Assembly (NCBI RefSeq): GCF_014137995.1
Contig: NZ_JACGWV010000003.1
Span: forward strand, 744,001-808,000
DNA from: Promicromonospora sukumoe
GTDB taxonomy: Bacteria; Actinomycetota; Actinomycetes; Actinomycetales; Cellulomonadaceae
Direction of reading: 5' to 3'
Length of the DNA: 64,000 nucleotides
The notes under the pieces were generated by a model, which did not search any database, was not told the origin of the DNA, and saw only the letters and a list, made by a program, of their open reading frames with translations. Below are positions 44,616-64,000 of the stretch, in pieces. Position numbers and translations under genes: made by a program. The first letter of the stretch is position 1; every line of letters starts with the position of its first letter.

Positions 44616-45437
44616 GTGACCGACGACGCACACACCACGGACCTGCGTGCCCACCACCCCGGCGACGACCCCGCCGACGGCCAGTTCCCCGAGAGCGTGG
44701 CCGCCGGCTACGACGGCCCGGGCGGCGCGAACGACCCGGCGGTCGTGACGCCCGCCGTGGACCTGCTGGAACGGCTCGCGGACGGCGGGCCCGTGCTGGA
44801 GCTCGCCGTCGGCACCGGGCGGATCGCGGCGCCGCTGGCCGCCCGCGGCCTCCAGGTGGGCGGCATCGAGCTGAGCCGGGCCATGGCCGCGCGGATCGCC
44901 GGCAAGCCCGGCGGGGCCGACGTCGCCGTCACGGTCGGCGACATGACGTCCACCCGGTTCGACGGGTTCGACGGCGCCGTCGGGCCGGGGGACTTCTCGC
45001 TGGCCTACCTCGTGTTCAACACGATCAGCAACGTCACGTCCCAGGACGGGCAGGTCGACGTCTTCCGCAACGCCGCGGCGCACCTGCGGCCCGGCGGGCT
45101 GTTCCTGGTCGAGGTCGGCGTGCCCGGCCTGCGCCGGCTCCCGCCCGGGCAGGACACCGTGCCGTTCACCGTCGCGCCGGAGGCGGGGGACAGCGGCTAC
45201 GTGGGCTTCGACCGGTACGACGTCGTCACGCAGCTCTTCACGTCGAACCACGTGACCGTGCGGCCCGACGGCACCGGCCAGTTCCGGGTGGCCCCGTTCC
45301 GGTACGCCTGGCCCGCCGAGATGGACCTCATGGCCCGGATCGCCGGGCTCCGCCTCCGGGACCGGTGGGCGGACTGGGACCGGTCGCCGTTCACCGCCGA
45401 CTCCGAGAAGCACGTCTCCGTGTGGGAGAAGGCCTGA
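44616..45437 (+). CDS. Class I SAM-dependent methyltransferase
   Basis: A 273-residue methyltransferase. The SAM-binding motif I is in VLELAVGTGRIAAPLAARGLQVGGIELS, motif II/III follows at MTSTRFDGFDGAVGPGDFSLAYLVFNTISN and LRPGGLFLVEVGVPGL. The N terminus is acidic and starts with a typical YDGPG segment. Acceptor unknown. The GTG start has a TAGCGT -10 box at 44603-44608, seven bases upstream. A long GC-rich hairpin separates it from the convergent polysaccharide gene. Confidence 0.88.
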   Translation: MTDDAHTTDLRAHHPGDDPADGQFPESVAAGYDGPGGANDPAVVTPAVDLLERLADGGPVLELAVGTGRIAAPLAARGLQVGGIELSRAMAARIAGKPGGADVAVTVGDMTSTRFDGFDGAVGPGDFSLAYLVFNTISNVTSQDGQVDVFRNAAAHLRPGGLFLVEVGVPGLRRLPPGQDTVPFTVAPEAGDSGYVGFDRYDVVTQLFTSNHVTVRPDGTGQFRVAPFRYAWPAEMDLMARIAGLRLRDRWADWDRSPFTADSEKHVSVWEKA

Positions 45438-45485: not shown

Positions 45486-47066
45486 TCAGTAGGCCCCGCG
45501 GCCCGACACGACGGCGCGGGCCGTCTGCCCGAGGATGGCGAGGTCCTGCAGCGGCGTCCAGTTCTCCGCGTAGTACACGTCGAGCCGGACGGCCTCCTCC
45601 CAGGGCAGGTCGGAGCGGCCGGAGACCTGCCACATGCCCGTCATCCCGGGCTTGACCAGCAGGCGCCGCCGCATGCGCTCCTCGTACGCCGCCACCTCGT
45701 GCGGCAGGGCCGGCCGGGGGCCCACGAGGCTCATGTGGCCGCCGAGGACGTTGAGGAGCTGGGGCAGCTCGTCGAGCGAGTACCGCCGCAGCACGCGGCC
45801 CACGCGGGTGATGCGCGGGTCGGTGCGCATCTTGAACAGGGGTCCGGCCCCGTCGTTGTCCTCGGTCAGCGCCTTCACCTCACGGTCGGCGCCGACCCGC
45901 ATGGTGCGGAACTTGAACATCCGGAAGATCTTGCCGTCCCGGCCCACCCGCTCCGACAGGTAGAACAGCGGGCCCTGGCTGGTCAGCGCGACCGCCAGCC
46001 CCACGCCGAGCAGCACCGGCGACGCGAGCAGGGTCAGCACGGCGGCCAGCACCCAGTCCATGGCCTGCTTCACGCGGAACTTGCTCCCCCGGAACCGGGG
46101 CGCGGCCACGTGCAGCAGCGAGAGACCCGCCGCGGGGGCGACGCTGACGCGCGCCGGGGCGACGTCGGCCAGCTCCGTGGTGAGCATCAGGTCGACGCCG
46201 ACCCGCTCGAGCTGCCAGCCGAGCTGGCGCACGACCTCCGTCGTGATGCTGCCGGACGCGCTCACCGCCACGGCGCTCGCGCGGACCAGGGCCGCTGCCT
46301 CGCCCACCCGGGACAGGTCGCCGAGCACGGGCACGCCGCCCACCTCGTCGCCGGGCAGACCGTCCAGCGGCGGGGTCTCGCCGGGGGCGGTCTCGCCCGC
46401 CGGCGTCTCGTCGGACGGCAGGCAGGCGCCCACCACCACGAACCCCCGGTACGGGGCGTCGTTGAGCCGGCGGATGACCCGCTCGGCGTGCTCGCGGTGC
46501 CCGGCCACCAGGACCGGCGTCATGCAGCCCGTGCCGCGCCGCCGCGTGCGCGCCACCCACTGGCGCCAGGCGTACCGCGAGCCGATCAGCCCGACGAGCC
46601 CGAGCGGCAGCGCGACGGCCAGCGCGAGAACGTCGCGTGGCCCGACGGACGCGGTGAGCCAGGCCACCACGACGAGGAGGCTCATCGACGTCCAGGTGGC
46701 GCCGACGATGCGCCGGTACTCCGTGTGGTCGCGGCCCACGACGCGCAGGTCGTAGGAGCTGCGCGCGGTCAGCGCCGCGATCCAGACCACCGCGACCAGC
46801 GCCGGCGCGACGGCCGACCAGAGCGGTCCGGGATGGCCGGGGGTGCCGGCCAGCAGGGTCGCGTCGAGCACGTACGCGAGGACCGCCGAGGCGATCACGA
46901 CGGCCGTGTCGGTGAAGCGCAGCCGGGCGCGGTAACGCACCTGCCACTCAGGATGAGCGCGCCTCGCGCGGACGTCGTGAAAACCACGCGACGCCGCATT
47001 CTTCACCCGTCTCTCGGGGGTTCGAGGGCGAATTTCGAAACCGCCACCTATTGTCTGGCTCGCCAC
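45486..47066 (-). CDS. Polyprenyl-phosphate sugar-1-phosphate transferase (initiating EPS enzyme)
   Basis: A 526-residue membrane enzyme that loads the first sugar phosphate onto undecaprenyl phosphate. It has four N-terminal helices (from about residue 50), a Rossmann-like middle part (TPVLVAGHREHAERVIRRLNDAPYRG), a fifth helix (MDWVLAAVLTLLASPVLLGVGLAVAL) and the catalytic bacterial sugar transferase domain with MFKFRTMRVGAD, SLDELPQLLNVLGGHMSLVGPRPALPHEV and the final LDVYYAENWTPLQDLAILGQT. GTG 47066 has AAGGAAGG upstream. A Thr/Glu/Pro-rich insert (ETPAGETAPGETPP) interrupts the middle part. Confidence 0.92.
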   Translation of the reverse strand: MASQTIGGGFEIRPRTPERRVKNAASRGFHDVRARRAHPEWQVRYRARLRFTDTAVVIASAVLAYVLDATLLAGTPGHPGPLWSAVAPALVAVVWIAALTARSSYDLRVVGRDHTEYRRIVGATWTSMSLLVVVAWLTASVGPRDVLALAVALPLGLVGLIGSRYAWRQWVARTRRRGTGCMTPVLVAGHREHAERVIRRLNDAPYRGFVVVGACLPSDETPAGETAPGETPPLDGLPGDEVGGVPVLGDLSRVGEAAALVRASAVAVSASGSITTEVVRQLGWQLERVGVDLMLTTELADVAPARVSVAPAAGLSLLHVAAPRFRGSKFRVKQAMDWVLAAVLTLLASPVLLGVGLAVALTSQGPLFYLSERVGRDGKIFRMFKFRTMRVGADREVKALTEDNDGAGPLFKMRTDPRITRVGRVLRRYSLDELPQLLNVLGGHMSLVGPRPALPHEVAAYEERMRRRLLVKPGMTGMWQVSGRSDLPWEEAVRLDVYYAENWTPLQDLAILGQTARAVVSGRGAY

Positions 47067-47366
47067 GTCGAATCCTTCCTTACCTCTTGCCAAGGATGAG
47101 TTTTCGGGCGCATTCGATCGTGACGCGTCGACGCGCTCTGGTGGAGCCGGGGGTGGTGGTCCGGGCCTTGCTACAGCAGCCACGGGGCGTTGTGTGTGCC
47201 CGGTTCTCGGTGCTATTTCCTCAACTCGATAATATGAGGAGCGATGCTTTCTGTCGTGCGCCGGGTGCCCCTTTCACCCAAGCCTTCACCCGCGACCTCA
47301 CCCTTCTCAAGGAATGGGTGAGGAAAAGCGGACGGCGCGCGTCGGAAAGAAATAACGGAACGTGGT
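47067..47366. promoter_or_regulatory. Control region upstream of the sugar transferase with phased TTCACCC boxes
   Basis: A 300-base gap of lower GC with no convincing gene. TTCACCC at 47273-47279 and 47285-47291 and CTCACCC at 47297-47303 are spaced exactly 12 bases apart; GGGTGAG follows inverted at 47316-47322. Nearer the gene, ACGACA (47257-47252) and TATTAT (47234-47229), 17 bases apart on the minus strand, make a promoter. The boxes therefore lie just upstream of its -35, an activator-like position. Confidence 0.6.
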
Positions 47367-47999
47367 TCAGCGAGGAAAAGACGCGTTCGACGCGGCCTCG
47401 GTGAGCACGCCGTCCGCCTCGGTGAACTCGTCACCGGTGACCGGACATCGCCAGCCGTCGCCCTCGGTCCGCTCCAGCGGGACGCCGGCCCGGCCGACCC
47501 AGCGGATGCGCCGGGCCGGGACGCCGGCGACGAGCGCGAAGTCCGGCACGTCGGCGGTCACGACGGCGCCCGCCGCGACGGTCGCCCACCGGCCGATCGT
47601 CACCGGGGCCACGCAGACCGCCCGGGCGCCGACGGCGGCACCGGTGCGGATCGTGACGCCCACGGCCTCCCAGTCGTCGCCGGTCTTGACGGTCCCGTCC
47701 GGGGTCACCGCGCGCGGGTAGAGATCGTTGGTGAGCACGGCGGCGGGGCCGACGAAGACACCGTCCTCCAGCACCGCCGGCTCGTAGACCAGGGCGTAGT
47801 TCTGCAGCTTGCAGCCGTCACCCAGGTGTACGCCGGGCCCGACGTAGGCGCCCCGTCCCACGATGCAGCCGGACCCCACGACGGCGTCCTCGCGCACCTG
47901 GGCCAGGTGCCAGATGGTGGTGCCGTCGCCGATCGTCGCGCGCTCGTCGACGTCCGCGGAGTCCAGGACCCGCGCCGCCCCCTGCTCACCGGTGCTCAT
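47367..47999 (-). CDS. Left-handed beta-helix (hexapeptide) N-acyltransferase
   Basis: A 210-residue trimeric-type acyltransferase with hexapeptide repeats (ATIGDGTTIWHLAQVREDAVVGSGCIVGRGAYVGPGV). It resembles WbpD/WlbB enzymes that acetylate the 3-amino group of a UDP-diamino-glucuronate (LVAGVPARRIRWVG is the common C-terminal coil), and a Zn-binding-like CPVTGDEF stretch follows. The DegT-type aminotransferase at the end of the window could supply the amine. It begins ten bases after an acyl carrier protein, so an ACP-bound acyl donor, as used by LpxA/LpxD, is an attractive inference. Acetyl-CoA remains the default alternative. Confidence 0.85.
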   Translation of the reverse strand: MSTGEQGAARVLDSADVDERATIGDGTTIWHLAQVREDAVVGSGCIVGRGAYVGPGVHLGDGCKLQNYALVYEPAVLEDGVFVGPAAVLTNDLYPRAVTPDGTVKTGDDWEAVGVTIRTGAAVGARAVCVAPVTIGRWATVAAGAVVTADVPDFALVAGVPARRIRWVGRAGVPLERTEGDGWRCPVTGDEFTEADGVLTEAASNASFPR

Positions 48000-48009
48000 G
48001 GTGTCCCCG

Positions 48010-48303
48010 TCACCGAGCCCGCTCGCTGACGAACGCGTGCAGGCTGCCCGCGGTCTCCAGCAGGCCGCCGGCGAGCTCGTCGTCCTCGACCGTGATGCCG
48101 AACCGGTCCTCGAGGGCGGTCACGAGCTCCAGGACGGCGAGCGAGTCGAGCTCGGGCACGTCGCCGAAGAGGGGGGTGGCGGCGTCGAACGTGCGCACCC
48201 GGTCCTCGATGCCGAGCACCCTGCCGAGCACCTCGAGCACGTCGGCGAGGGCCACGCCGCTCGTGGTGGTGCCCGCGGGGCTGTCTGTCACGTCGCTGGT
48301 CAT
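48010..48303 (-). CDS. Acyl carrier protein of the EPS locus
   Basis: A 97-residue acyl carrier protein. The phosphopantetheine attachment Ser is in PELDSLAVLELVTALEDRFGI, and the helix order is normal: VLEVLGRVLGI before, DDELAGGLLETAGSLHAFV after. An N-terminal tail of about 20 residues, rich in Thr/Ser, precedes the fold. The ATG at 48303 has AGGAG upstream. Its neighbours are an AMP-forming ligase, a PLP decarboxylase and an acyltransferase rather than fatty acid synthase genes, so it probably carries a dedicated small acyl or amino-acyl group. Confidence 0.9.
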   Translation of the reverse strand: MTSDVTDSPAGTTTSGVALADVLEVLGRVLGIEDRVRTFDAATPLFGDVPELDSLAVLELVTALEDRFGITVEDDELAGGLLETAGSLHAFVSERAR

Positions 48304-48412
48304 GAGGGTCTCCTGTCGTGGCTTCACACTGTGTCTTTGTGGTGTGAGACTGCGGTTCCGCTACGGGCGGGTGCCTCGTTCCTCGGCCCCCACCCTTCGC
48401 TGCACCTCCGCC
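48304..48412 (-). promoter_or_regulatory. Leader with hairpin between decarboxylase and ACP genes
   Basis: A 109-base gap inside the cassette. TCACAC and GTGTGA (about 48325-48347) can pair around a 12-base loop, shortly upstream of the ACP ribosome site. It may be a processing site or a weak attenuator that sets different levels of ACP relative to the enzymes encoded upstream. This is inference from pairing only. Confidence 0.35.
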
Positions 48413-49723
48413 TCACACCAGTACTTCGGCGGGCGCCGGGTGGCCCAGGAAGGCGGTCGGGCTGGCCGTGAGGCCGTAGGCCCCCGCCTGCAGCACGACC
48501 ACCAGGTCGTCGGGCTCGGCCCGGGGCAGGGGCACGTCGTCGGCCAGCAGGTCGAGCGGGGTGCAGAGGCAGCCGACGACGGTCGCCTGCTCGACGTCGG
48601 ACGACGCCATCCGGTTGCCGACGAGCACCGGGTAGTTGCGCCGGATCACCTGGCCGAGGTTCCCGGAGGCGGCGAGCTGGTGGTGCATGCCGCCGTCGAC
48701 CACCAGGTAGGTGCGGCCGCGGGAGACCTTGCGGTCGATGACGCGGGTCACGTAGCTGCCCGCCTCGCCGACGAGGTAGCGGCCCAGCTCGATGTGCACG
48801 TCGGCCTCGGGCAGCGCCGGGGCGATCTGGTCGGCGACGACGGCCGCGAGGCTCTCGCCGACGCGGGCCAGGTCCACCGGCCGGTCCTTGGGGAAGTACG
48901 GGATGCCCAGGCCGCCGCCCAGGTTCACGTACCGCACCGGGGCGGGCGCGTGCTCGGCGAGCGCGACGACGAGGTCGGCCGTGGCGCGCTGCGCGCCCGC
49001 GATCAGCTCCGCGTCGAGGTTCTGCGAGCCGGCGAAGATGTGGAACCCGGTCACGTCCGCGCCCGTGGTGCCCAGGTAGGACAGCAGGTCGGGGACCTGC
49101 TCGGCGTCGACGCCGAACTGCTGCGGGCCGCCGGACATGCGCATGCCCGAGCCGCGCACTGCGAAGTCCGGGTTGACGCGGATCGCCACGCGCGGGACGA
49201 CGCCGAGTGCCTCGCCGGCCGCGACGACGCGGCGGGCCTCGGTGTACGACTCGAGCTCGATCAGCACGCCTGCGGCGACCGCCGACCGGATCTCCGCCGG
49301 CGTCTTGCCGGGGCCGGCGAAGCTGATCCGGCCCGGGTCCGTCCCGGTGTCCAGGGCGGTGTGCATCTCGTGCGCGGAGGCGACGTCGAGCGCGTCCACC
49401 AGCCCGGACAGGTGCTGCACGACGGCGGGCATCGGGTTGGCCTTGACGGCGTACCCGAGCCGGACGGCGTCACCGAGCGCGGCCTTGACCTCGCGGACCC
49501 GGTCGGTGATGCGCTGCCGGTCGTAGGCGAAGAAGGGCGTGGACCCCACGCGGGCGGCGAGGCGCTCGAGCGGGACGCCGCCCACGAGGATCTCGTCGCC
49601 GGACACGGGCATCGCGGCGACGGCCGGGTGCGGGGTGGGTGTTGCCGGGGCGGGGGCCGCGGGGCTCGCCGGGGCGGGCGCCGTGGCGCCGACGGGGGCC
49701 TCGGCCAGGGGCTGGGCGGTCAC
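48413..49723 (-). CDS. Group IV PLP-dependent decarboxylase (exosortase A-associated type)
   Basis: A 436-residue alanine-racemase-fold decarboxylase of the ornithine/diaminopimelate decarboxylase class. The PLP lysine is in LGYAVKANPMPAVV; others are FAGPGKTPAEI, HIFAGSQN, LGGGLGIPY, ELGRYLVGEAGSYV and the active-site Cys in VGCLCTPLDLL. It resembles the subgroup called 'exosortase A system-associated' and the butirosin enzyme BtrK, which decarboxylates a glutamyl group bound to a carrier protein. An Ala/Pro-rich N-terminal tail of about 40 residues is unusual. GTG 49723 overlaps the ligase stop (GTGA), so the two are co-translated. Confidence 0.88.
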   Translation of the reverse strand: MTAQPLAEAPVGATAPAPASPAAPAPATPTPHPAVAAMPVSGDEILVGGVPLERLAARVGSTPFFAYDRQRITDRVREVKAALGDAVRLGYAVKANPMPAVVQHLSGLVDALDVASAHEMHTALDTGTDPGRISFAGPGKTPAEIRSAVAAGVLIELESYTEARRVVAAGEALGVVPRVAIRVNPDFAVRGSGMRMSGGPQQFGVDAEQVPDLLSYLGTTGADVTGFHIFAGSQNLDAELIAGAQRATADLVVALAEHAPAPVRYVNLGGGLGIPYFPKDRPVDLARVGESLAAVVADQIAPALPEADVHIELGRYLVGEAGSYVTRVIDRKVSRGRTYLVVDGGMHHQLAASGNLGQVIRRNYPVLVGNRMASSDVEQATVVGCLCTPLDLLADDVPLPRAEPDDLVVVLQAGAYGLTASPTAFLGHPAPAEVLV

Positions 49724-51345
49724 TGGGACACCTCCGCGACCAGCTCCGCGCGGATGGCGGGGCGGTCGAGCTTTCCGTTGGGGTTGCGGGGGAACGCGGC
49801 GGCGACGTGGACCTGTGCCGGCAGCATGAAGGTGGGCAGGGTCTGCCGCATCTCCTTGAGCAGCCGGTCGGTGTCGACCGCCTCGGGGGCCAGGACGGCG
49901 AGCTCGATCCGCTGCCCCAGGCGCTCGTCCGGCACGCCGATCGCGACGGCCTCGCGCACCAGGCCGGAGGCCAGGGCGGCCTCCTCCACCTCGGTGGGGC
50001 TGACGCGGTACCCGGAGGTCTTGATCATCTCGTCCTCGCGGCCCACGAAGTACAGGTAGCCGTCGGCGTCGCGCACCACGGTGTCGCCCGACCACACGGC
50101 GGGCTCCGGCACGGCACGCCACGGCTCGTCGTAGCCCGGCACGGGGCGGAACCGTGCCGCCGTCCGCTCCGGGTCGTTCCAGTAGCCGAGCGCGACGAGG
50201 CTGCCGCGGTGCACCAGCTCGCCGGGCTCGTCGGGCGCGCACGGGGTGCCGTCCGGGCGCAGCACCAGCACCTCGGCGTTCGGGATCGCCCTGCCGATCG
50301 AGCCGGGGCGCGCGTCCACCTGCGCGGGGTCCAGGTAGGTGGACCGGAACGACTCGGTCAGCCCGTACATCAGGTACGGCGCGGCCGTGGGGAACAGCTC
50401 GCGCAGCTCGCCCAGGAGCGCGCCCGACATGCGGCCGCCGGTGTTGGCGAAGTACCGCAGCGCGAACCGGGCGCCGGACGGCCACTCGACCGAGGCGAGC
50501 TGGGTCCACAGCGGCGGCACACCCGTGATGCCGGTGACGCCGTACTTCTCGCACGCGGCGGTGACGTTCCGGGGGAGCAGGTAGTCGAGCAGCACCGCGT
50601 GGGCGCCGACGGCGAACGCGGTGGTGAGCTGGCTCAGCCCGGCGTCGAAGCTCAGCGGCAGGACCGCCAGGAGCACGTCGTCGGCCGTGTTGTGCAGGTA
50701 GCCCGAGACGCTCGTGGCGCCCACGACCAGGTTGCGGTGCGACAGGACGACGCCCTTCGGGGCGCCGGTGCTGCCGGACGTGTACAGGATCGCGGCGATG
50801 TCGGTGTCGGGGCCGTCGTGCAGCTCGGGGGCGGCCGCCGGGGCCTCGTCGTCGGACGCCGTGCCGCCGGGCGCCTCGCCGTCGGCGACGTCGTTCCAGC
50901 GCCGCACCTCCAGGCCGGGTACCTGGGGCAGGTCGTCCGCGGCGCCGCCGTCGGGCTGGTCGACGAGCAGCACCGTGACCAGCCCGGTGTCGCCGAGGTG
51001 GTCGCGGACGGCGCTCAGCCGACCCGTGGAGGTGACCAGCACGCGCGCGCCGGAGTCGCGCACGACGTGGGCGACCTGCTTGCCCTTCAGCAGCGGGTTG
51101 ACGGGGACGAAGACGCCGCCGGCCACGGAGGTGCCCCACAGGGCCTCGACCGTCTCGAACCGCTTCTCCAGGAAGACCGCCACCCGGTCGTGCCGCGCCA
51201 CGCCGAGCCCGGCGAGGCGGACGCCGGCCCGCCGCACGGCGCGCCACAGCTCCGCGTACGTCAGGGTCGCGTCGCGGGCCGACAGCGCGGGGGCGTCCGG
51301 CCGCAGGCGCGCCTGATGCTCCAGATGCTGATGGATGGTGGTCAC
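49720..51345 (-). CDS. AMP-forming acyl/aminoacyl ligase (exosortase A-associated type)
   Basis: A 541-residue adenylate-forming ligase. Core motifs are LYTSGSTGAPKGVVLSHRN, MYGLTESFRSTYLDP, GELVHRGSLVALGYWNDPE, the hinge GREDEMIKTSGYRVSPTEVE and the catalytic Lys in NPNGKLDRPAI. It closely fits the 'acyl-CoA ligase, exosortase A system-associated' group. With an ACP and a PLP decarboxylase in the same cassette, loading of an amino acid or acid onto the ACP is inferred. GTG 51345 is chosen because TACCGT (51358-51353) stands seven bases upstream; ATG 51351 would overlap that box. Confidence 0.88.
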   Translation of the reverse strand: MTTIHQHLEHQARLRPDAPALSARDATLTYAELWRAVRRAGVRLAGLGVARHDRVAVFLEKRFETVEALWGTSVAGGVFVPVNPLLKGKQVAHVVRDSGARVLVTSTGRLSAVRDHLGDTGLVTVLLVDQPDGGAADDLPQVPGLEVRRWNDVADGEAPGGTASDDEAPAAAPELHDGPDTDIAAILYTSGSTGAPKGVVLSHRNLVVGATSVSGYLHNTADDVLLAVLPLSFDAGLSQLTTAFAVGAHAVLLDYLLPRNVTAACEKYGVTGITGVPPLWTQLASVEWPSGARFALRYFANTGGRMSGALLGELRELFPTAAPYLMYGLTESFRSTYLDPAQVDARPGSIGRAIPNAEVLVLRPDGTPCAPDEPGELVHRGSLVALGYWNDPERTAARFRPVPGYDEPWRAVPEPAVWSGDTVVRDADGYLYFVGREDEMIKTSGYRVSPTEVEEAALASGLVREAVAIGVPDERLGQRIELAVLAPEAVDTDRLLKEMRQTLPTFMLPAQVHVAAAFPRNPNGKLDRPAIRAELVAEVSQ

Positions 51346-51603
51346 GAACATCACGGTAAAGCGCGCACGATCATTTTCGGCAGGCCAGGCGAGGGTGAAT
51401 AGGGCCGAAAAGCGGGTGAACCGCGGGAGAGGTGAAAAAGGCGAGGTCACAACGCGTGTGCAGTGTTATGTCAATCACATCCACGAGGCGCAGGAGGTGA
51501 ATTACCGTGCATGGACCCGATGTCATCCCCTGTTCAAGGAAAGCAAATGGTGAATTAGGCCCCGCCGTGCCCTTTTCACCTCGCGGGATTCACCCGGCCG
51601 GAT
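51346..51603. promoter_or_regulatory. Control region upstream of the ligase cassette with GGTGAA boxes
   Basis: A low-GC gap of 258 bases. GGGTGAA at 51393-51399 and 51414-51420 and AGGTGAA at 51430-51436 lie 35-80 bases upstream of the -10 box of the ligase gene. AGGTGAA recurs at 51495 and TGGTGAA at 51548; TTCACCT (51575), TTCACCC (51589) and TTCACCA (51603) follow at an exact 14-base step. A possible 38-codon frame from GTG 51507 with AGGAGG upstream is noted but unproven. Confidence 0.55.
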
Positions 51604-52458
51604 TCACCACGGCACCTGGGTGAGCTCGCTGTAGAGGTAGGACACCGTCTCCGGCGGCTCGCCGGTCCGGCTCAGGTACATCGTCGGCCGCTGCGCCGGC
51701 AGGGGCACCGAGTGCCACGGCCGGGGGCCGCTGACGCGGGTCTGCAGCAGGGTGAACGGCAGCCCGTGGGCGAGCAGCACGTGCCGGTAGACCGCGGGCG
51801 CGGCGGCGCGGAACAGGTCGCGGTCGCTCACGTGCAGCACCGAGGCGAACAGCCGCACCCGCTTGCGGCGCACGGCGCGGAACACCACCCAGCACGGCCG
51901 CCCGTCGACGACCGCGACGACGTGCCGGGCGGCGGCGGAGTCGGCGTGGTCCCGGTAAGCGGCCAGGTCAGCGCCGCTGAGCACGGCCTCGATGTCGGCG
52001 CGCCCGGTCAGCAGGCGTACGCCCGGCGTGGGCAGCGGGAGGTTCGCCACCAGGGCGCCCGAGGTGTCGAGGTGGTGGAACCCGAGCCGCTCGTTCAGGG
52101 GGATCACGGTGCCGCTCGGGGACAGGTCGGTGAGCTCCCGGTCGCGCTGGGCGAGCATCGCGCGCAGCAGCCGGAGCGAGTGGTGCCGGAACTCGTCGAG
52201 CACGCACCACGCCGCGACGTTGCACACGGCGCGCCCCTCGGTCTCCGAGTACAGGGCGGCGTAGACGCCCACGACGGTGCCCTCGGACTCCAGCAGGAAC
52301 CCGTGGTCGGGATGGCTCGTGGTCCACGTGGGGCGCAGCGAGCGCGCCCATTGCCCGGGCGTCAGGGTGCTGTCCAGGTGCACGCTGAGAAATTCGCCCA
52401 CACGCGGCAGGTCACCTGTCGTGACGGGGGCGAGACTGACCTCTTTCGAATGTGCCAC
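51604..52458 (-). CDS. GNAT family acetyltransferase of the EPS locus
   Basis: A 284-residue protein with an N-terminal GNAT-like domain: HPDHGFLLESEGTVVGVYAALYSE followed by AAWCVLDEFRHHSLRLLRAMLAQRD, where the R-H-H-S-L-R-L-L replaces the usual acetyl-CoA loop. The C-terminal half, with VAVVDGRPCWVVFRAVRRKRVRLFASVLHVSD, looks like a second degenerate GNAT-type fold. It may acylate a sugar or lipid intermediate of the glycan. GTG 52458 has CATACT seven bases upstream. It sits between the ligase cassette and a divergent glycosyltransferase. Confidence in the family is moderate. Confidence 0.65.
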   Translation of the reverse strand: MAHSKEVSLAPVTTGDLPRVGEFLSVHLDSTLTPGQWARSLRPTWTTSHPDHGFLLESEGTVVGVYAALYSETEGRAVCNVAAWCVLDEFRHHSLRLLRAMLAQRDRELTDLSPSGTVIPLNERLGFHHLDTSGALVANLPLPTPGVRLLTGRADIEAVLSGADLAAYRDHADSAAARHVVAVVDGRPCWVVFRAVRRKRVRLFASVLHVSDRDLFRAAAPAVYRHVLLAHGLPFTLLQTRVSGPRPWHSVPLPAQRPTMYLSRTGEPPETVSYLYSELTQVPW

Positions 52459-52632
52459 GTCGGTGAGTATGACCCCGGAAATAGTCGCCGTCCGGGGTGG
52501 GGCGGGGTGAAAGGAACAACGCGCGTCAATTTCATCCGGTGATTTGCGTAAGCGTGCCGCGAGGCATTTATCACCCCAGCGTTCACCCGGGAGGCGCGTG
52601 CTTCTGCGGACGCCAGCCGTCACTATCGGGGT
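52459..52632. promoter_or_regulatory. Divergent EPS control region with phased boxes
   Basis: A 174-base AT-richer gap between the GNAT gene and a glycosyltransferase gene. ATCACCC (52570-52576) and TTCACCC (52582-52588) are 12 bases apart, the same step as upstream of the sugar transferase, and GGGTGAA occurs at 52505-52511. They lie about 45-65 bases before the glycosyltransferase start. Confidence 0.5.
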
Positions 52633-53898: not shown

Positions 53899-54911
53899 GC
53901 GAGAACGACCGGCGTGTGAGGATGACCGGCATGGGCACCTCGTCGTGGCGGTCACCGCTCCGCTGGGCCGTCGGCGCGCTGTTCGCCGCCGCGCTGACCA
54001 CCGTCGCCACCACCGCTCCGGGCACCGACCCGGCCGGCTCGGGCGCCTCCGCGCCCGCCGAGAGCCCGGTGTCCACCGAGGCGCCGTCGCCGCCCGCGAG
54101 CGTGGTCGAGAAGGGCGAGGCCCTGGAGTTCCCGACGCCGGCGACCGCGGGCCTGCCCGAGGGCTGGAAGCCCAAGGAGACCCACACTGGCGACCTGTTC
54201 ATCCGCGAGGCCGGGACCGTCGTCAGCGACCTGCGGATCACGGACGGCGTCATCTACGTCGAGGCCGACAACGTGACGCTGCGTCGCGTCCAGGCCCTCG
54301 GGTCGCGGGTCGTCAACGACGCGACCCCGGGGGTGTGCGGGTCCGGGATGGTGGTCGAGCAGTCCGAGTTCCTGCGCAGCTCGGTGCAGACCCGCGACAC
54401 CGACCAGCCGATCATCGGGAACGGCGGGTTCACCGTGCGCGACGTGGTGATCGACGAGCTGCCCGAGGGCATCCGGGTCGGCGCCAAGGAGTGCGGCGAC
54501 GTCGTCGTCGAGGACACGTACGTCAAGATCGTCCCGCCCGACGTGTGCGAGGACTGGCACGGCGACGGCATCCAGGGCTACGGCGGTGGCAGCGTGACCG
54601 TCCGGAACGTCCGGATCATCATGGAGGAGGCCCCCGACTGCTACGGGACCGCGCCGTTCTTCTACCCGAGCGGCCAGGGCAACACGTCGCTGACCGTCGA
54701 CGGGCTGCTGGTCGAGGGCGGCGGCTACGCGTTCCGCGCGGGCACCCCGGGCAGCGTGCGCAACCTCCAGATCGTGCAGGACGCCTGGGGCTACGGCCCG
54801 GTCGACGTCCTGTGCGGGGCCCTCACCGAGTGGCAGGCGAACACCGTGACGGTCGGCAGCAGCGGCACGCGGCCGGGCGACCCGATCGAGTGCGCGGGCA
54901 GCGGCAACTGA
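53895..54911 (+). CDS. Secreted parallel beta-helix protein
   Basis: A 338-residue exported protein: signal peptide or anchor near residues 20-42 (SPLRWAVGALFAAALTTVATTAPG), a Pro/Ser/Thr-rich linker of about 40 residues, then a domain of repeating short strands (DLRITDGVIYVEADNVTLRRVQAL, GFTVRDVVIDELPEGIRVGAKECG, SVTVRNVRIIMEEAPDC) as in right-handed beta-helices of polysaccharide lyases and hydrolases. DWHGDGIQGYGGGSV is a common feature of such folds. It may trim or bind the exported polysaccharide. It is co-translated with the preceding glycosyltransferase. Confidence 0.78.
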   Translation: MSENDRRVRMTGMGTSSWRSPLRWAVGALFAAALTTVATTAPGTDPAGSGASAPAESPVSTEAPSPPASVVEKGEALEFPTPATAGLPEGWKPKETHTGDLFIREAGTVVSDLRITDGVIYVEADNVTLRRVQALGSRVVNDATPGVCGSGMVVEQSEFLRSSVQTRDTDQPIIGNGGFTVRDVVIDELPEGIRVGAKECGDVVVEDTYVKIVPPDVCEDWHGDGIQGYGGGSVTVRNVRIIMEEAPDCYGTAPFFYPSGQGNTSLTVDGLLVEGGGYAFRAGTPGSVRNLQIVQDAWGYGPVDVLCGALTEWQANTVTVGSSGTRPGDPIECAGSGN

Positions 54912-55131: not shown

Positions 55132-55968
55132 TCACGCCCGCGAGCTGGCGTCGCGTTCCCAGGTCGTGAAGTCGCCCGCGCGCACCGCGGCGCGCGAGCG
55201 CAGCCGCCCCGCGAGCACGACGCCGGCGAACACCGGCACCTTGGGCGCCAGCGCCGGGCGCTCCCGGACGACCCGCCAGAGGTCGCCGAGCGACGTCCGC
55301 GCCTCCGCCCCGCGCAGGCCCGCGCGGTCGGCCTGGACGTTGCCGGTCGTCACGCGCGCCCGGCGCCGGACGAGGTCGCCCAGGGTGCGGGCGGGGTGCA
55401 CGACGACGGCGACGTCCGGCACGACGACGCGCTCGGCGGGGGCGAACGCCTCCGAGAGCACGAGGTCGTCCGCCATCACCGGCGGCAGGGCGGCGACCCG
55501 CGCGGCGGCGTCCCGCGACACGGCCAGCACCCCGCGCCCGAACAGCCCGGACCGCACGGTCGGCAGCGCCTCCCACACGTCGTAGTACCAGCGGGCGAGC
55601 GGCGTCACCCCGGTACGGGGCAGGGTGCGCGACGGCGCCGCCACGGCGGCATCCCCTGGCCCGACGGCGGCCGCGAGCCGGGCCACGCCGTCGGCGGAGA
55701 TCTCGACGTCGGCGTCCAGGTACACGCGGGGGAACGTCACGGCCACGTCGTCTGCGGCGCGCAGCGCGCGGGCCTTGGACGGCTCGGGCAGGTCCAGGAC
55801 CGTCACGGGGTACCGCGCGGCCACGGCCGCCGTCCCGTCCGTGCACCCGTTGCACGCGACCACGACCTCCAGCAGCCCGGGGGTGGCGCACAGCGCGTCG
55901 AGCAGGCGGCCGATCGTGCGCTCCTCGTCGTGCGCGGGCACGACGACGGACGCGACGGGCCCGCTCAT
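55132..55968 (-). CDS. GT2 family glycosyltransferase
   Basis: A 278-residue GT-A enzyme. It opens with VASVVVPAHDEERTIGRLLDAL, has the nucleotide-sugar region VVVACNGCTDGTAAVAARY and the metal-binding VYLDADVEI, then a C-terminal helical part with WERD near the end. No membrane helix is evident. The acceptor is presumably the lipid-linked EPS repeat unit. The ATG overlaps the stop of the upstream GT2 gene (ATGA), placing it last in the run deacetylase - GT2 - GT2. Confidence 0.86.
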   Translation of the reverse strand: MSGPVASVVVPAHDEERTIGRLLDALCATPGLLEVVVACNGCTDGTAAVAARYPVTVLDLPEPSKARALRAADDVAVTFPRVYLDADVEISADGVARLAAAVGPGDAAVAAPSRTLPRTGVTPLARWYYDVWEALPTVRSGLFGRGVLAVSRDAAARVAALPPVMADDLVLSEAFAPAERVVVPDVAVVVHPARTLGDLVRRRARVTTGNVQADRAGLRGAEARTSLGDLWRVVRERPALAPKVPVFAGVVLAGRLRSRAAVRAGDFTTWERDASSRA

Positions 55969-56864
55969 CGGGGCAGCACCGCGTCGCTCGCGCCGAGCGC
56001 CGCCGGCCGCAGGGAGGGCCGGACCAGCGCCCGCAGGGTGGGCCACGACGCGCGGTGCCCCAGGAGGGCCCGCCGGAGCTCCACGAGCAGGGTCACGCCG
56101 TAGTACGTCCAGGCCGCCGGGGTGCCGCGGCGGCGCCGGATCAGGCGCACGCGGTTGAGCATCTGCATGGTGTGCGTCGCGTGGCTGGTGCCCGACCCGC
56201 CGCCCACGTGCATGCCGCCGGCGTCCGGCGCGTACACCGACAGCCAGCCGCGGTCCCGGGCGCGCAGCGCGAAGTCCGTCTCCTCGGAGTAGAGGAAGTA
56301 CGTCTCGTCGAACCCGCCGAGCGCGTCGAAGCACTCCCGGTCCACGAGCCAGATGGCGCCGACGGCCCAGTCCACCGGGTGCTCCGTGACGTAGGCGCGC
56401 GGGTCCTCGATCCGCTCCGCGAGCAGCGGCAGGCCCGTGAAGCTCAGGCCGCCGGCCCGGGCCAGGGTCGGCTCCCGGCGCAGCGTCGGGGACAGGCTCC
56501 CGTCGGCCTCGCGGGTGCGCGGCGCCACGATGCCGACCCCCGGCCGGCGCAGCACCGACAGCATCCGCGGCACCGACTCGGCGTCGAGCTCCACGTCCGG
56601 GTTGAGCACCAGGATCTCCGCGGCCTCCGGGGAGTGCCGCACCGCCCGGTTCATCCCCGCGCCGTAGCCGTCGTTCACGCTCTCCACGACGGTGCAGTCG
56701 CCGCGCCGGCGCAGCAGCGCCAGCGTGTCGTCCGTGGACCCGTTGTCCACCACCACGGTCGTGTACGGCACGTCGCCGAAGGCCGCGGGCAGGCTGTCCA
56801 GGAGGGCGTCGACGTGCTGGGCGCTGTTGTAGGTCACGACGACCGCCGCCACCTCGGCCCCCAT
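55965..56864 (-). CDS. GT2 family glycosyltransferase (rhamnosyltransferase-like)
   Basis: A 299-residue GT-A enzyme resembling bacterial rhamnosyltransferases: AAVVVTYNSAQHVDALLDSL at the start, VVVDNGSTDDTLALLRRRG, the ILVLNPDVELD metal site, GAIWLVDRECFDALGGFDETYFLYSEETDFALRARDRGW near the middle and a basic helix (MLNRVRLIRRRRG). The donor is not certain. It is coupled to genes on both sides: its ATG overlaps the deacetylase stop by one base and its stop overlaps the next ATG by four. Confidence 0.88.
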   Translation of the reverse strand: MGAEVAAVVVTYNSAQHVDALLDSLPAAFGDVPYTTVVVDNGSTDDTLALLRRRGDCTVVESVNDGYGAGMNRAVRHSPEAAEILVLNPDVELDAESVPRMLSVLRRPGVGIVAPRTREADGSLSPTLRREPTLARAGGLSFTGLPLLAERIEDPRAYVTEHPVDWAVGAIWLVDRECFDALGGFDETYFLYSEETDFALRARDRGWLSVYAPDAGGMHVGGGSGTSHATHTMQMLNRVRLIRRRRGTPAAWTYYGVTLLVELRRALLGHRASWPTLRALVRPSLRPAALGASDAVLPR

Positions 56865-57517
56865 CAGCGCAGCCCCTTGACGAAGGTCCGGGCCCGGTCC
56901 GCGGCGCGCACCGTGTAGCGGTCGCCGTGCCGGAGCCAGACGGCGACGTCGTCGGCCGTGTCGTTCGCGCGGAGGCTGAACCGGGCCTGCCGCCAGGAGT
57001 CCGGCCGGGCCAGCGCGCGGTCGCTGGTGTAGACACGCGTGTAGCGCAGCCTGCGCAGCGCGGCCAGGGTGGTCCGGTCGTAGCGGCCCAGCGGGCACGC
57101 GGCGGTGGTCACCGGCTCGTCCAGCACCTCCTCCAGCCGCTCCCGCGCCTCGACGAGCTCTTCGTGCACCTGGTCCGGGGTCAGCCGGCGCCACACCCGG
57201 TGGTGCATGCCGTGCGACCCGACGCCCATCCCCGACCGGCGCAGCGCGCGCACGTCGCCGGCGGACAGCGAGCCCGGCTGCCCGAGCCGGCCGGCGATCA
57301 CGAAGAAGTCGGCGGCGCGCCCGCGCTCGACCAGCTCGGGGAGCGCCACCGTCAGGTCGGATGTGTTGCCGTCGTCGAAGCTGAGCCGCACGTCCGGCCG
57401 GACGGCCACCAGGTCGAGGACGCGCCGGAACGTGTCGGCGTCGACCCAGTAGGCGGCCTCCTCGGCCGGGACGTCGTCCGGCGGCGTCCCGATGCCGTGA
57501 AAGCAGAGATTGATCAT
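56864..57517 (-). CDS. NodB-type polysaccharide deacetylase
   Basis: A 217-residue carbohydrate esterase family 4 protein without a signal peptide. The first Asp-containing motif is RLSFDDGN and the metal-binding His motif is VGSHGMHHRVW; a third segment CPLGRYDRTTLAALR follows. It would remove N-acetyl groups from an amino sugar, perhaps on the cytoplasmic side given the lack of signal. It heads the run deacetylase - GT2 - GT2. Direct GGGTGAT repeats with 12-base spacing lie just upstream of its promoter. Confidence 0.87.
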   Translation of the reverse strand: MINLCFHGIGTPPDDVPAEEAAYWVDADTFRRVLDLVAVRPDVRLSFDDGNTSDLTVALPELVERGRAADFFVIAGRLGQPGSLSAGDVRALRRSGMGVGSHGMHHRVWRRLTPDQVHEELVEARERLEEVLDEPVTTAACPLGRYDRTTLAALRRLRYTRVYTSDRALARPDSWRQARFSLRANDTADDVAVWLRHGDRYTVRAADRARTFVKGLR

Positions 57518-62119: not shown

Positions 62120-63319
62120 TCACAGGCCGGACGTCGCCCAGCGCAGGTACATCAGCTCGGCCCGGGCGCGGCGGGCGACCTTGCGGACGACGGCGCCGGA
62201 CCCGGCCCGGCCCGTCCGCTCGGCGCGGACCGCCCGGCGGCCGATCCGCGCGGTCGAGGGCCAGGACGCCGACGCCGGCCAGACCTCGGCCGCGAGCTCC
62301 AGGTAGGGCGCGGGCGGCTCCGACCGGTCGGCGGCCGCCGCGGCGTACCGCAGGGCGTCCCGGGCCAGCGCCGACCGGGCGCGGTCGTGCAGCCCGCGCG
62401 CGCCGGTGATCCGGTCCCCGACGTTGGCGAACAGCCGGTCGTACGCGTCCACGCGGGCGCGCAGGTCCAGGAGCGCGCCCGAGCCCTCGTTCACGCTCAG
62501 GCTGCCCGCGTGCTCGCGGTGCAGCGCCTGGTCGGCGCCGCCCACGTAGGCGACGTCGCCGACGGCGGCCAGCCGCAGCCACATCTCGACGTCCATCGTG
62601 AACTTGAGGTGCGGGTCCAGCGGTCCGACGTCCTTGAGCAGGTCGGCGCGCATGACCACCTCGGGCGAGGTGATGGAGCTGACGCCCGTGCGGCACCGCT
62701 CGGACAGCCACGCGCGCCCGTCCCAGACGGTCCAGGACAGCTCGTGCAGCGCCCCGACGGGCGGCGTGCCGTCCTCGAAGTGCTGCGGGTGGCCGTAGAC
62801 CAGCCCGACCCGCGGGTACTGCTCCATGACCGCCGTCGCCCGCGCGAGCGCGCCGGGCGGCAGCATGTCGTCGGCGTCCAGCCGCACGACGAACTCGCCC
62901 GTGCTCTGCTCCCAGCCGCGGTTGAACGACCCGACCTGGCCCAGGTTGTGCTCGTTCGCCAGCACCGTCACCGCCGGGTGCTCGGCCGCCAGGGCCCGCG
63001 CGACGGCGAGGCTGTCGTCGGTGGACGTGTCGTCGACGACGATCACCTCGACGTCGACCCCCTCCTGGGTCACCAGGCTGCCCACCGTCTGCGGCAGGAA
63101 CCGGCCGTAGTTGTAGCAGGGCACCACCACGGAGACCTTCGGGCGCAGCTGCGGGGCGGCCGCGGGACGACGTCGGAAGGACTGCGCCGCGAGCGGCGAC
63201 CGGACCCACGACCCGAGCGTCCGGACCACACGGGCGCCCGGACCCTGCCCGCCCGTGGCGTGCCGGTCCACCCACCCGCGCCAGGCGTTCGCCGCCCGGT
63301 CGAGCGTCCCGGCGCTCAT
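62120..63319 (-). CDS. GT2 family glycosyltransferase
   Basis: A 399-residue protein. After about 60 basic residues, the GT-A domain begins VSVVVPCYNYGRFLPQTVGSLVTQEG, with VIVVDDTSTDDSLAVARAL, the metal-binding FVVRLDADDMLPPG and a helical C-terminal part (residues about 260-399) of unknown role. MDVEMWLRLAAVGDVAYVGG resembles the acceptor-site region of GT2 enzymes. The ATG overlaps the aminotransferase stop (ATGA), so both are translated together. Confidence 0.86.
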   Translation of the reverse strand: MSAGTLDRAANAWRGWVDRHATGGQGPGARVVRTLGSWVRSPLAAQSFRRRPAAAPQLRPKVSVVVPCYNYGRFLPQTVGSLVTQEGVDVEVIVVDDTSTDDSLAVARALAAEHPAVTVLANEHNLGQVGSFNRGWEQSTGEFVVRLDADDMLPPGALARATAVMEQYPRVGLVYGHPQHFEDGTPPVGALHELSWTVWDGRAWLSERCRTGVSSITSPEVVMRADLLKDVGPLDPHLKFTMDVEMWLRLAAVGDVAYVGGADQALHREHAGSLSVNEGSGALLDLRARVDAYDRLFANVGDRITGARGLHDRARSALARDALRYAAAAADRSEPPAPYLELAAEVWPASASWPSTARIGRRAVRAERTGRAGSGAVVRKVARRARAELMYLRWATSGL

Positions 63320-64000
63320 CGCGGCACCCGCCTGGTGACGGCGTCGTGCAGCGTGCGCACCACGTGCTCCTGCTGGTCGGCGGTGATCCCCGGGAACATC
63401 GGCAGCGAGAGGATCTGGTCGGCGTGCGCCTCGGCGCGTGGCGCGGTGCCGGGGCGGAAGCCCAGGTGCTCGGTCGCGGGCAGCAGGTGCACGGGGGCCG
63501 GGTAGTGGATGCCGTGCCCGATCCCGGCGGCCGACAGCGCCGCGGACACCGCGGGCCGGTCCGGCGTCCGGACCACGTACAGGTGCCACACGTGCGTGGC
63601 GCCCGGCAGCTCGCGCGGCGCGACGAGCTCCGGCACGTCCGCGAACGCCTCGGCGATGAGCGCCCCGTACCGGGTCGCGGCCTCCGACCGCTGCTGGTTC
63701 CAGGCGTCCAGCCGGGTCAGCTTCGCGGACAGGACGGCGGCCTGCAGGGAGTCCAGGCGCGAGTTGGCGCCCACCTCCAGGTGCTCGTACCGGTTGATGC
63801 CGCCGTGGTTGCGCAGGCGGCGCGCCCGCTCGGCCACGTCGTCCGACGGCGTCATGACCGCGCCGCCGTCGCCGAACGCGCCCAGGTTCTTGCCCGGGTA
63901 GAAGCTCGTGGCGGCCACGTCGCCCGCCCCGCCCGAGCGGGCGCCGTCGCGGCTCGCGCCCTGCGACTGGGCGGCGTCCTCGACCACGAGGACGTCGGGG
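63316..64000 (-). CDS. DegT/DnrJ/EryC1/StrS aminotransferase, 5' end beyond window
   Basis: The C-terminal 228 residues of a sugar aminotransferase; the start lies past base 64000. The PLP lysine is in SFYPGKNLGAFGDGGAV, and VVEDAAQSQGA, RNHGGINRYEHLEVGANSRLDSLQAAVL and GIGHGIHYPAPVHL are typical of WbpE/WlbC-like enzymes that make a 3-amino sugar nucleotide. The hexapeptide acyltransferase at 47367-47999 resembles WbpD/WlbB, the next enzyme of that route, so both probably build one N-acylated amino sugar for the glycan. Confidence 0.9.
   Translation of the reverse strand, partial: PDVLVVEDAAQSQGASRDGARSGGAGDVAATSFYPGKNLGAFGDGGAVMTPSDDVAERARRLRNHGGINRYEHLEVGANSRLDSLQAAVLSAKLTRLDAWNQQRSEAATRYGALIAEAFADVPELVAPRELPGATHVWHLYVVRTPDRPAVSAALSAAGIGHGIHYPAPVHLLPATEHLGFRPGTAPRAEAHADQILSLPMFPGITADQQEHVVRTLHDAVTRRVPR

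Follow-up and report, generated by a model that had tools for sequence, protein, structure and literature searches.

Gene content of the locus

Within a glycan locus of the 64,000-nucleotide stretch of Promicromonospora sukumoe DNA analysed here (the window), genes for a ligase, a decarboxylase, an acyl carrier protein (ACP) and a hexapeptide protein lie consecutively on the minus strand. All four open reading frames of the initial annotation are confirmed, and its GTGA overlap of the ligase and decarboxylase genes and its ten-base spacing between the ACP and hexapeptide genes are exact. It overlooked a conserved fifth gene immediately upstream of the ligase, which encodes a protein with a tandem-GNAT fold. 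The main features are:

45486..47183, minus strand: polyprenyl-phosphate sugar-1-phosphate transferase (TIGR03025, 368 bits; PF02397), called start 46940
47367..47999, minus strand: hexapeptide protein (Hexapep), predicted left-handed beta-helix sugar N-acetyltransferase, WlbB-like
48010..48303, minus strand: ACP (PF00550, PP-binding) with ELDS phosphopantetheine site
48413..49723, minus strand: PLP decarboxylase (TIGR03099), BtrK-like
49720..51345, minus strand: AMP-forming ligase (TIGR03098), GTG start, in-frame ATG alternative at 51351
51604..52473, minus strand: tandem-GNAT-fold protein, 289 aa, shorter start possible at 52401
55965..56864, minus strand: glycosyltransferase family 2 (PF00535), a conserved neighbour in 49 of the best 80 of 185 related loci
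56864..57517, minus strand: polysaccharide deacetylase subfamily protein (PF01522), without signal or membrane segment
57602..58918, minus strand: Wzy-type polymerase/ligase (PF04932), in 48 of the same best 80 of 185 loci
63316..63987, minus strand: DegT aminotransferase (PF01041, 333 bits), truncated by the window end

The sugar-1-phosphate transferase is predicted to start the glycan. The DegT gene is complete at L112:1316–2530. A promoter scan gave nothing of use.

Patterns from the window protein retrieved 185 relatives, and the best 80 of these make up the related loci used here. Genes in the fetched loci were called with our own script, which performed poorly in several of them (for example, L143, L147 and L154–L156), so that counts for Pseudomonadota loci are lower bounds; the genome-wide searches for exosortase, GNAT, deacetylase and PEP-CTERM were independent of that script. 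One genome-wide search drew on 50 of the 80 loci, of which 49 were searched. Alignments took in 47 GNAT, 24 deacetylase, 33 ligase and 34 decarboxylase sequences.

Among these best 80 loci, the ligase is directly upstream of the decarboxylase in 78 and, by called starts, overlaps it in 73, and the ACP is directly downstream of the decarboxylase in 72, a linkage that exceeds chance. The ligase–decarboxylase–ACP adjacency is kept across phyla. In four relatives that have no GNAT gene (L089, L092, L107 and L110), ketosynthase or polyketide synthase genes adjoin it, a setting in which a building block would be needed on a carrier. L092 also carries a second decarboxylase gene (L092:597–1898), distinct from the one that adjoins the ligase.

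A probable carrier-bound amino acid

Both enzymes score above the cut-offs of the families that the initial annotation had linked to exosortase A systems (ligase, 703 bits against 592 for TIGR03098; decarboxylase, 580 bits against 478 for TIGR03099). The two models are typed 'hypoth_equivalog' and named solely by their exosortase company. In the literature on these families, sections of PMC2907700 and PMC8776678 give no account of the ligase–decarboxylase set.

Over the region of the ligase pocket, the best PDB match is VinN, in which, according to sections of PMC7756342, Asp230 contacts the alpha-amino group and Ser299 and Arg331 contact the alpha-carboxyl group. The aligned ligase residues D234 and R334 are kept in 33/33 sequences, and T302, at the position of Ser299, is threonine in 27 and serine in 6. 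We propose from this alignment a ligase that joins the side-chain carboxyl of Asp or Glu to the ACP, the pocket residues fitting both amino acids without telling them apart. The nearest PDB match of the decarboxylase is BtrK (236 bits), followed by 6knh (147 bits; presumably SbnH) and then LysA, and the motif CTPLD is present in 34/34 decarboxylases, with CESGD instead in the 4 LysA paralogues read. The ACP that accompanies this BtrK-like enzyme is free-standing and shares its ELDS site with all members of its cluster (74/74). Because the decarboxylase is BtrK-like and the ligase carries VinN-type residues, it is likely that Asp or Glu is decarboxylated while bound to the carrier. The conversion of a carrier-bound amino acid to an omega-aminoacyl group, as the initial annotation had it, is thus supported, also by the polyketide-adjoining relatives.

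Two other readings of these enzymes fit less well. The ligase also matches fatty-acyl ligase models and FadD-type structures, which would suit a pathway to an N-acyl amine or N-acyl amino acid in which the ligase loads a fatty acid, the GNAT protein transfers it and the decarboxylase makes an amine from a free amino acid; the amino-acid pocket with its invariant D234 and R334, the VinN match there and the BtrK-like decarboxylase make this very improbable. We find it scarcely credible that the decarboxylase acts on a free amino acid in LysA/ODC-like fashion while the ligase forms a CoA ester, their adjacency being metabolic bookkeeping only. The LysA model TIGR01048 does match the decarboxylase, but at 227 bits, under its cut-off of 298, and the adjacency with ligase and ACP across phyla and beside polyketide genes also speaks against such a role, as does a separate CESGD-type LysA paralogue in the same genome. 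The decarboxylase as sole LysA of the genome was rejected on the presence of this paralogue.

Candidate transferases and the exosortase link

The initial annotation assigned the transfer of the omega-aminoacyl group off the ACP to the hexapeptide protein, with an amino sugar made by the DegT aminotransferase offering the acceptor amine. Its gene starts ten bases after the ACP gene and adjoins it in 9/9 Promicromonospora loci among the best 80 of 185 (in one, the gene is broken by masked bases), and hexapeptide enzymes of the LpxA/LpxD type use acyl-ACP. However, no hexapeptide gene lies beside the ACP in any of the other 71 of these loci (0/71) or in G023, from another genus of the family. The closest solved relative, 3mqg, is an acetyltransferase (135 bits, 2e-38, residues 11–199 of 210, C-terminal cysteine tail included), which we take to be WlbB. 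Furthermore, among six further genes of the hexapeptide cluster, spread over five other loci of the best 80, four, in three loci, lie at most two genes from a GFO/IDH gene, and in one of those three loci the gene is also at most two genes from a DegT gene. Because the hexapeptide protein has an acetyltransferase as closest solved relative, and its gene adjoins that of the ACP in Promicromonospora only among the best 80 loci, it is probably not the acyltransferase of the module; we rejected it as such on these two grounds, and transfer by it appears quite unlikely. From its sequence we take it as a separate acetyltransferase, a genus-specific passenger of the cassette. Weaker hexapeptide-like matches, at roughly 32–38% identity, occur for example in L049, L066, L068 and L094, and in L106 masked bases merge the hexapeptide gene with the following gene.

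The conserved partner of the ligase, decarboxylase and ACP is instead the tandem-GNAT gene. It is present in 65 of the best 80 of 185 loci. Where the fetched locus is without it, 14 genomes were searched, and 7 of them have the gene elsewhere. Over loci and genomes examined together, it is absent from 7/79 (L049 excluded), four of the seven being of polyketide type and one having an exosortase. Promicromonospora genomes with the decarboxylase all have it (8/8) and those without the decarboxylase do not (0/3); in the rest of the family it is found in G023 (1/1) and in 0/19 other genomes. The gap to the ligase gene is some 210–330 bases in Promicromonospora and about 250 in the window, so a shared transcript is not necessary. 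The most frequent neighbours in the best 80 loci include no further acyltransferase family.

Pfam and NCBIfam each gave 0 matches for the window protein, and its sequence profile matched no PDB sequence. Its AlphaFold model (pLDDT 93.1) has 92 Foldseek matches in the PDB at E ≤ 0.001, the top ones tandem GNATs; they include the glucosamine N-acetyltransferases 5kf1 and 4zm6 and Eis with bound acetyl-CoA, and TMq values of 0.33–0.56 among the 50 matches listed fit a shared fold only. The usual acetyl-CoA loop of GNATs is Q/RxxGxG/A. At the corresponding site, none of the 47 aligned sequences has this motif: all of them (47/47) end it with R or K, and the fourth residue is S (24), G (22) or T (1). 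In 12/47 a matching string occurs somewhere, at scattered positions. Such an altered loop would fit a carrier instead of CoA, and we propose the protein, with its modelled fold, as a candidate omega-aminoacyl-ACP N-acyltransferase. It might instead cap the carrier-bound group, acetylating or aminoacylating the free amine of omega-aminoacyl-ACP against cyclisation and leaving transfer of the capped group to another enzyme. Tandem GNATs such as Eis, matched here with its ligand, use acetyl-CoA, and sections of PMC11284099 describe capping of carrier-bound omega-amino acids in a related pathway, where VinM attaches an amino acid to 3AIB-VinL. We consider capping unlikely, given the altered loop, the lack of another acyltransferase family among the most frequent neighbours and the four polyketide-type relatives without the gene.

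The deacetylase gene is present in 52 of the best 80 of 185 loci and missing, within about 10 kb, from the other 28. Residues D48, D49, H102 and H106 are kept in 52/52 sequences, and no hydrophobic segment was found in these 52. At E ≤ 1e-25 it occurs in 8/8 Promicromonospora genomes with the decarboxylase, 0/3 without it and 0/11 exosortase genomes, and is present in the exosortase-free Pseudomonadota genome G671; G023 has the decarboxylase and GNAT genes and no deacetylase. We propose that it is cytoplasmic and frees the acceptor amine. It is a tandem GNAT that travels with the module, together with a deacetylase as possible source of the amine, and the DegT product as acceptor is not supported.

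The initial annotation saw no exosortase or PEP-CTERM protein in the locus, and the whole genome agrees: PF09721 (exosortase) has 0 matches, the PEP-CTERM signal TIGR02595 matches 0/8 Promicromonospora genomes, this one included (4/5 exosortase genomes match), and the best score for TIGR03100 (exosortase-associated hydrolase 1) is 40.5 bits against a cut-off of 168. On these three results we rejected an exosortase system outside the window, which the initial annotation had named as contrary evidence. The hydrolases TIGR03100 and TIGR03101 are also absent from the best 80 loci (0/80 for TIGR03100, searched with a home-made profile). Exosortase is present in 28/30 Pseudomonadota with the decarboxylase above cut-off, and full-length exosortase in 0/21 Actinomycetota searched the same way. 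GNAT and exosortase are not fully mutually exclusive: G666 has both (GNAT at 229 bits, 200 kb from the decarboxylase gene), and G578, with an exosortase and a decarboxylase below cut-off, has GNAT matches of 187 bits elsewhere and 84 bits about 1.5 kb from the decarboxylase gene. G960 has the decarboxylase above cut-off and neither of the two. In a quickly built decarboxylase tree, which included three of the four true LysA rows and carried a warning on the long LysA and subfam350 branches, the exosortase-free clade is nested within the exosortase-associated one. Judged from these sequences, the locus belongs to a branch of an unexplained module that does without an exosortase and brings a new candidate transferase.

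A proposed glycan-decoration module and known systems

The analysis demonstrates which genes are present, their families and folds, the conservation of active-site residues and the co-occurrence of the genes, and on these we build a model of an exosortase-free glycan-decoration module made up of GNAT, ligase, decarboxylase, ACP and deacetylase. The ligase would adenylate aspartate or glutamate at the side-chain carboxyl and load it on holo-ACP, and the decarboxylase would remove the alpha-carboxyl group on the carrier to give beta-alanyl- or 4-aminobutyryl-ACP. In the cytoplasm, the deacetylase would take an N-acetyl group off an amino sugar linked to a nucleotide or a lipid, and the amine thus exposed would receive the omega-aminoacyl group of the ACP through the tandem GNAT. 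Wzx/Wzy would then flip and polymerise the glycan, which would bear a primary amine. We infer every reaction here, most of all GNAT-catalysed transfer and what the deacetylase does, and put the chances of the model as a whole explanation at about even. The initial annotation's interpretation is, overall, partly supported.

The broader suggestion is a widespread, undescribed primary-amine decoration of bacterial polysaccharides that combines an omega-amino acid made by decarboxylation on a carrier, a new ACP-dependent tandem-GNAT family and a dedicated cytoplasmic deacetylase, with the ligase–decarboxylase–ACP core shared with exosortase and polyketide loci that use other hand-over enzymes. We offer it tentatively, somewhat short of an even chance. 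If true, TIGR03098 and TIGR03099 would gain a function, the surface glycans of Rhizobiales and of many families of actinobacteria would be linked to antibiotic-type carrier chemistry, and cationic beta-alanyl or 4-aminobutyryl substituents would be predicted on those glycans. To our knowledge, on-carrier amino-acid trimming and hand-over are so far known from a few antibiotics, and exosortase-free loci with a linked transferase make a smaller system for testing the chemistry.

Several known systems share parts of the locus. The hexapeptide protein matches 3mqg, presumably of the WlbB/WbpD type of UDP-3-amino-sugar N-acetyltransferases, along its length, whereas it sits behind an ACP, in one genus only among the loci seen. 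XrtA/PEP-CTERM exopolysaccharide loci have homologous ligase, decarboxylase and ACP genes side by side or nearly so; the locus here differs in its GNAT, a different deacetylase, and the lack of a full-length exosortase, PEP-CTERM and TIGR03100/TIGR03101. In the vicenistatin (VinN–VinL–VinO) and bolagladin (BolO–BolC–BolN) pathways, an amino dicarboxylate is adenylated and passed to an ACP and the thioester is then decarboxylated, according to sections of PMC11284099 and PMC7756342. The ligase shares the pocket residues of VinN, but those pathways feed assembly lines, whereas here the genes stand in a Wzx/Wzy glycan cluster (four relatives adjoin polyketide genes). Butirosin BtrI–BtrJ–BtrK, which decarboxylates glutamyl-ACP on the carrier, likewise comprises a stand-alone ligase, an ACP and a group IV PLP decarboxylase; the decarboxylase here has the CTPxD motif, and BtrK is its nearest solved structure. 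The butirosin genes lie in an aminoglycoside locus, whereas these lie in a polysaccharide locus and the decarboxylase belongs to TIGR03099; the tandem GNAT presumably takes the place that BtrH holds there.

The conserved gene set and its surroundings

The ligase, decarboxylase, ACP and hexapeptide genes were placed correctly in the initial annotation and are listed here with other genes of the locus:

47367–47999, minus strand, hexapeptide protein
48010–48303, minus strand, ACP
48413–49723, minus strand, PLP decarboxylase
49720–51345, minus strand, ligase
51604–52473, minus strand, tandem-GNAT-fold protein (GNAT)
53931–54911, plus strand, strand-rich predicted protein (pLDDT 83, no Pfam match)
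56864–57517, minus strand, polysaccharide deacetylase (PDA)

The conserved unit seen among relatives differs from the four-gene cassette described there. Genes were called and clustered in the best 80 of 185 related loci from GTDB genomes; the named loci nearest to the window, whose genome spans 6.5 Mb, are from Promicromonospora. Across these 80 loci, the ligase is found in 79, the ACP in 75, the GNAT, which had gone unlisted, in 65, a polysaccharide deacetylase in 52 and one GT2 in 49. In 42 loci the GNAT gene directly precedes the ligase and shares its strand; in 11 it comes right after the ACP and lies on the opposite strand. The ACP has a hexapeptide gene behind it in 9 loci (8 plus L106, in which masked bases conceal the end of that gene), all from Promicromonospora. 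G023, a genome from another genus of the family, has the ligase, decarboxylase and ACP, and the 4.2 kb retrieved around these genes contains no hexapeptide match.

The surroundings of the four genes look like a Wzx/Wzy-type glycan cluster. Toward the window end lie the deacetylase, GT2 enzymes, a Wzy-type protein and additional glycosyltransferases; past it, the fetched locus (L112) continues with a flippase, a GFO/IDH oxidoreductase, an epimerase, a NeuD-type acetyltransferase and two DegT aminotransferases, one of them cut by that end. An initiating sugar-phosphate transferase occupies the opposite flank of the four-gene set. The protein at 53931–54911 may act on the same glycan. Its cluster has members in 47 of the best 80 loci, one relative read carries DUF4082, and its Foldseek matches are weak, with polysaccharide lyases among them and none at E ≤ 0.001.

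TTCACC/GGTGAA hexamers, possibly binding sites of a regulator, are concentrated between the genes of the glycan locus (47002–47290, 51394–51608, 52506 and 52582), with 14 in 1,695 intergenic bases after position 45400 versus 2 in 4,969 before. The GNAT–ligase gap holds eight in the window, and the equivalent gap of five relatives holds 4–6.

Candidate roles of the proteins

We propose that the ligase would load Asp or Glu onto the ACP through the side chain, that the decarboxylase would act on it while ACP-bound, and that the GNAT would pass the omega-aminoacyl group on to an amine that the PDA may have freed. The scheme as a whole stands at about even chances, and its parts differ.

Loading and on-carrier decarboxylation are quite probable, judging from close relatives and residues. 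The best PDB match for the ligase pocket region is VinN (3wv4), in which, according to PMC7756342, Asp230 serves the alpha-amino group and Ser299/Arg331 the alpha-carboxyl group. These residues align with ligase D234, T302 and R334; in an alignment of 33 ligases, drawn from Actinomycetota, Rhizobiales and those Pseudomonadota that have an exosortase, D234 and R334 are kept in all 33 and position 302 is always T or S. Because the VinN pocket residues, as described there, are kept, the predicted ligase substrate is an amino dicarboxylate. The decarboxylase is nearest to BtrK (236 bits versus 147 for the next family), and CTPLD occurs in 34 of 34 decarboxylases, with CESGD in the four LysA paralogues read.

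Linkage and predicted fold lean towards a transferase role for the GNAT. The window protein has no match in Pfam or NCBIfam searches, and Acetyltransf_1 is touched by 11 of 47 aligned members (best E 0.00038). Its AlphaFold model (pLDDT 93.1, pTM 0.89) resembles tandem GNAT structures, including the clavulanic acid tandem GNAT, Eis, VipF and glucosamine N-acetyltransferases (TMq 0.33–0.56 among the matches listed). The CoA loop is non-canonical, with R or K at its last position in 47/47, and the invariant residues of the alignment include C84, N85, C90, D116, D175, H176, R199, R246 and Y281-S282-E283.

Release of the acceptor amine by the PDA, suggested by linkage only, is the weakest part of the proposal and is put forward tentatively. 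The D-D-H-H site is present in 52/52 deacetylases and a hydrophobic segment in none, so the protein should be cytoplasmic. The hexapeptide protein aligns with 3mqg across almost its full length; since the locus encodes a pair of DegT enzymes and a single NeuD-type acetyltransferase, its simplest role is that of acetyltransferase for a second amino sugar.

Exosortase and the distribution of GNAT and PDA

The exosortase A-associated decarboxylase family, TIGR03099, is found above cut-off in 30 of 398 Pseudomonadota, in 2 of 396 evenly drawn Actinomycetota (the window's genome being one) and, within the window's family, in 9 of 121 genomes, one of them again the window's own. A full-length exosortase accompanies it in 28 of the 30 Pseudomonadota (exceptions, G671 and G960), and in 3 of 9 with a weaker decarboxylase. 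None of 21 Actinomycetota searched (9 with a decarboxylase above cut-off, 12 with a weaker one) has a full-length exosortase. Behind the named loci, 1 of 49 genomes has one, the Rhodospirillales MAG of L101. PEP-CTERM matches number 0/8 in Promicromonospora genomes versus 4/5 in exosortase genomes. Three Promicromonospora genomes (G077, G105 and G516, the last that of L032) give short partial exosortase-family matches of ~30 bits to the model's last third, away from the locus.

The GNAT stands in place of something else. In the three exosortase loci scanned, hydrolases come after the ACP: exosortase-associated hydrolases 2 and 1 (TIGR03101 and TIGR03100) in two and TIGR03100 in one; neither profile matches in the best 80 of 185 loci (0/80), and on a separate set of 40 loci hydrolase 1 matches in 18 and hydrolase 2 in 6. 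Of the 28 exosortase genomes with a decarboxylase above cut-off, one (G666) has the GNAT, 200 kb from the decarboxylase. The GNAT is present in 8/8 Promicromonospora with the decarboxylase, 0/3 without it, G023 and 0/19 other family members. A counterexample to a clean split is G578, with an exosortase, a decarboxylase below cut-off and GNAT matches of 187 bits elsewhere in the genome and 84 bits ~1.5 kb from the decarboxylase. G960, whose decarboxylase exceeds the TIGR03099 cut-off, has neither exosortase nor GNAT.

Fifteen loci lack the GNAT. Among 14 of their genomes searched, 7 carry it outside the fetched stretch; the other 7 are L101 (exosortase), L089, L092, L107 and L110 (adjoining polyketide genes), and L085 and L041 (metagenome draft assemblies). 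The PDA subfamily (E ≤ 1e-25) shows a similar distribution to the GNAT and occurs in 8/8 Promicromonospora with the decarboxylase, 0/3 without, 0/16 family members and 0/11 exosortase genomes; it is present in G671 and absent from G023, although G023 has the GNAT.

Decarboxylase history and known systems

A quick tree of 83 rows, for which four LysA sequences served as outgroup, included 38 exosortase-free decarboxylases, GNAT-type and polyketide-type. All 38 group in a single clade (SH-aLRT 98) nested within the exosortase-type sequences, beside the Rhodospirillales one (96). Because of this nesting, the tree would fit a single escape from the exosortase setting, with polyketide-cluster use later; the opposite direction, toward that setting, appears less likely on these 83 rows.

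Two sister decarboxylase subfamilies occur in other Actinomycetota (L011–L020 and L172–L175); against TIGR03099 they reach ~350 and ~420 bits, short of its cut-off. Ligase and ACP stand alongside in the four loci read (L172–L175), and none of six genomes searched has the GNAT. The second decarboxylase of L092 (L092:597-1898) is of the first sister kind, with 57–60% identity to L011–L020.

The open literature, searched by family names and by exosortase with decarboxylase or ACP, yielded no description of the ligase–decarboxylase–ACP set; subscription papers fall mostly outside it and absence is unproven. The decarboxylase homologues of L107, L089, L092 and L110 adjoin polyketide synthase genes, with a ligase and a small ACP-sized gene beside them in the first three, and likely make omega-amino starter units. 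Besides polyketide genes, L107 encodes a condensation domain and acyl-CoA dehydrogenases, the latter shared with bolagladin, where they are reported to be used for dehydro-beta-alanine (PMC11284099 / PMC7756342).
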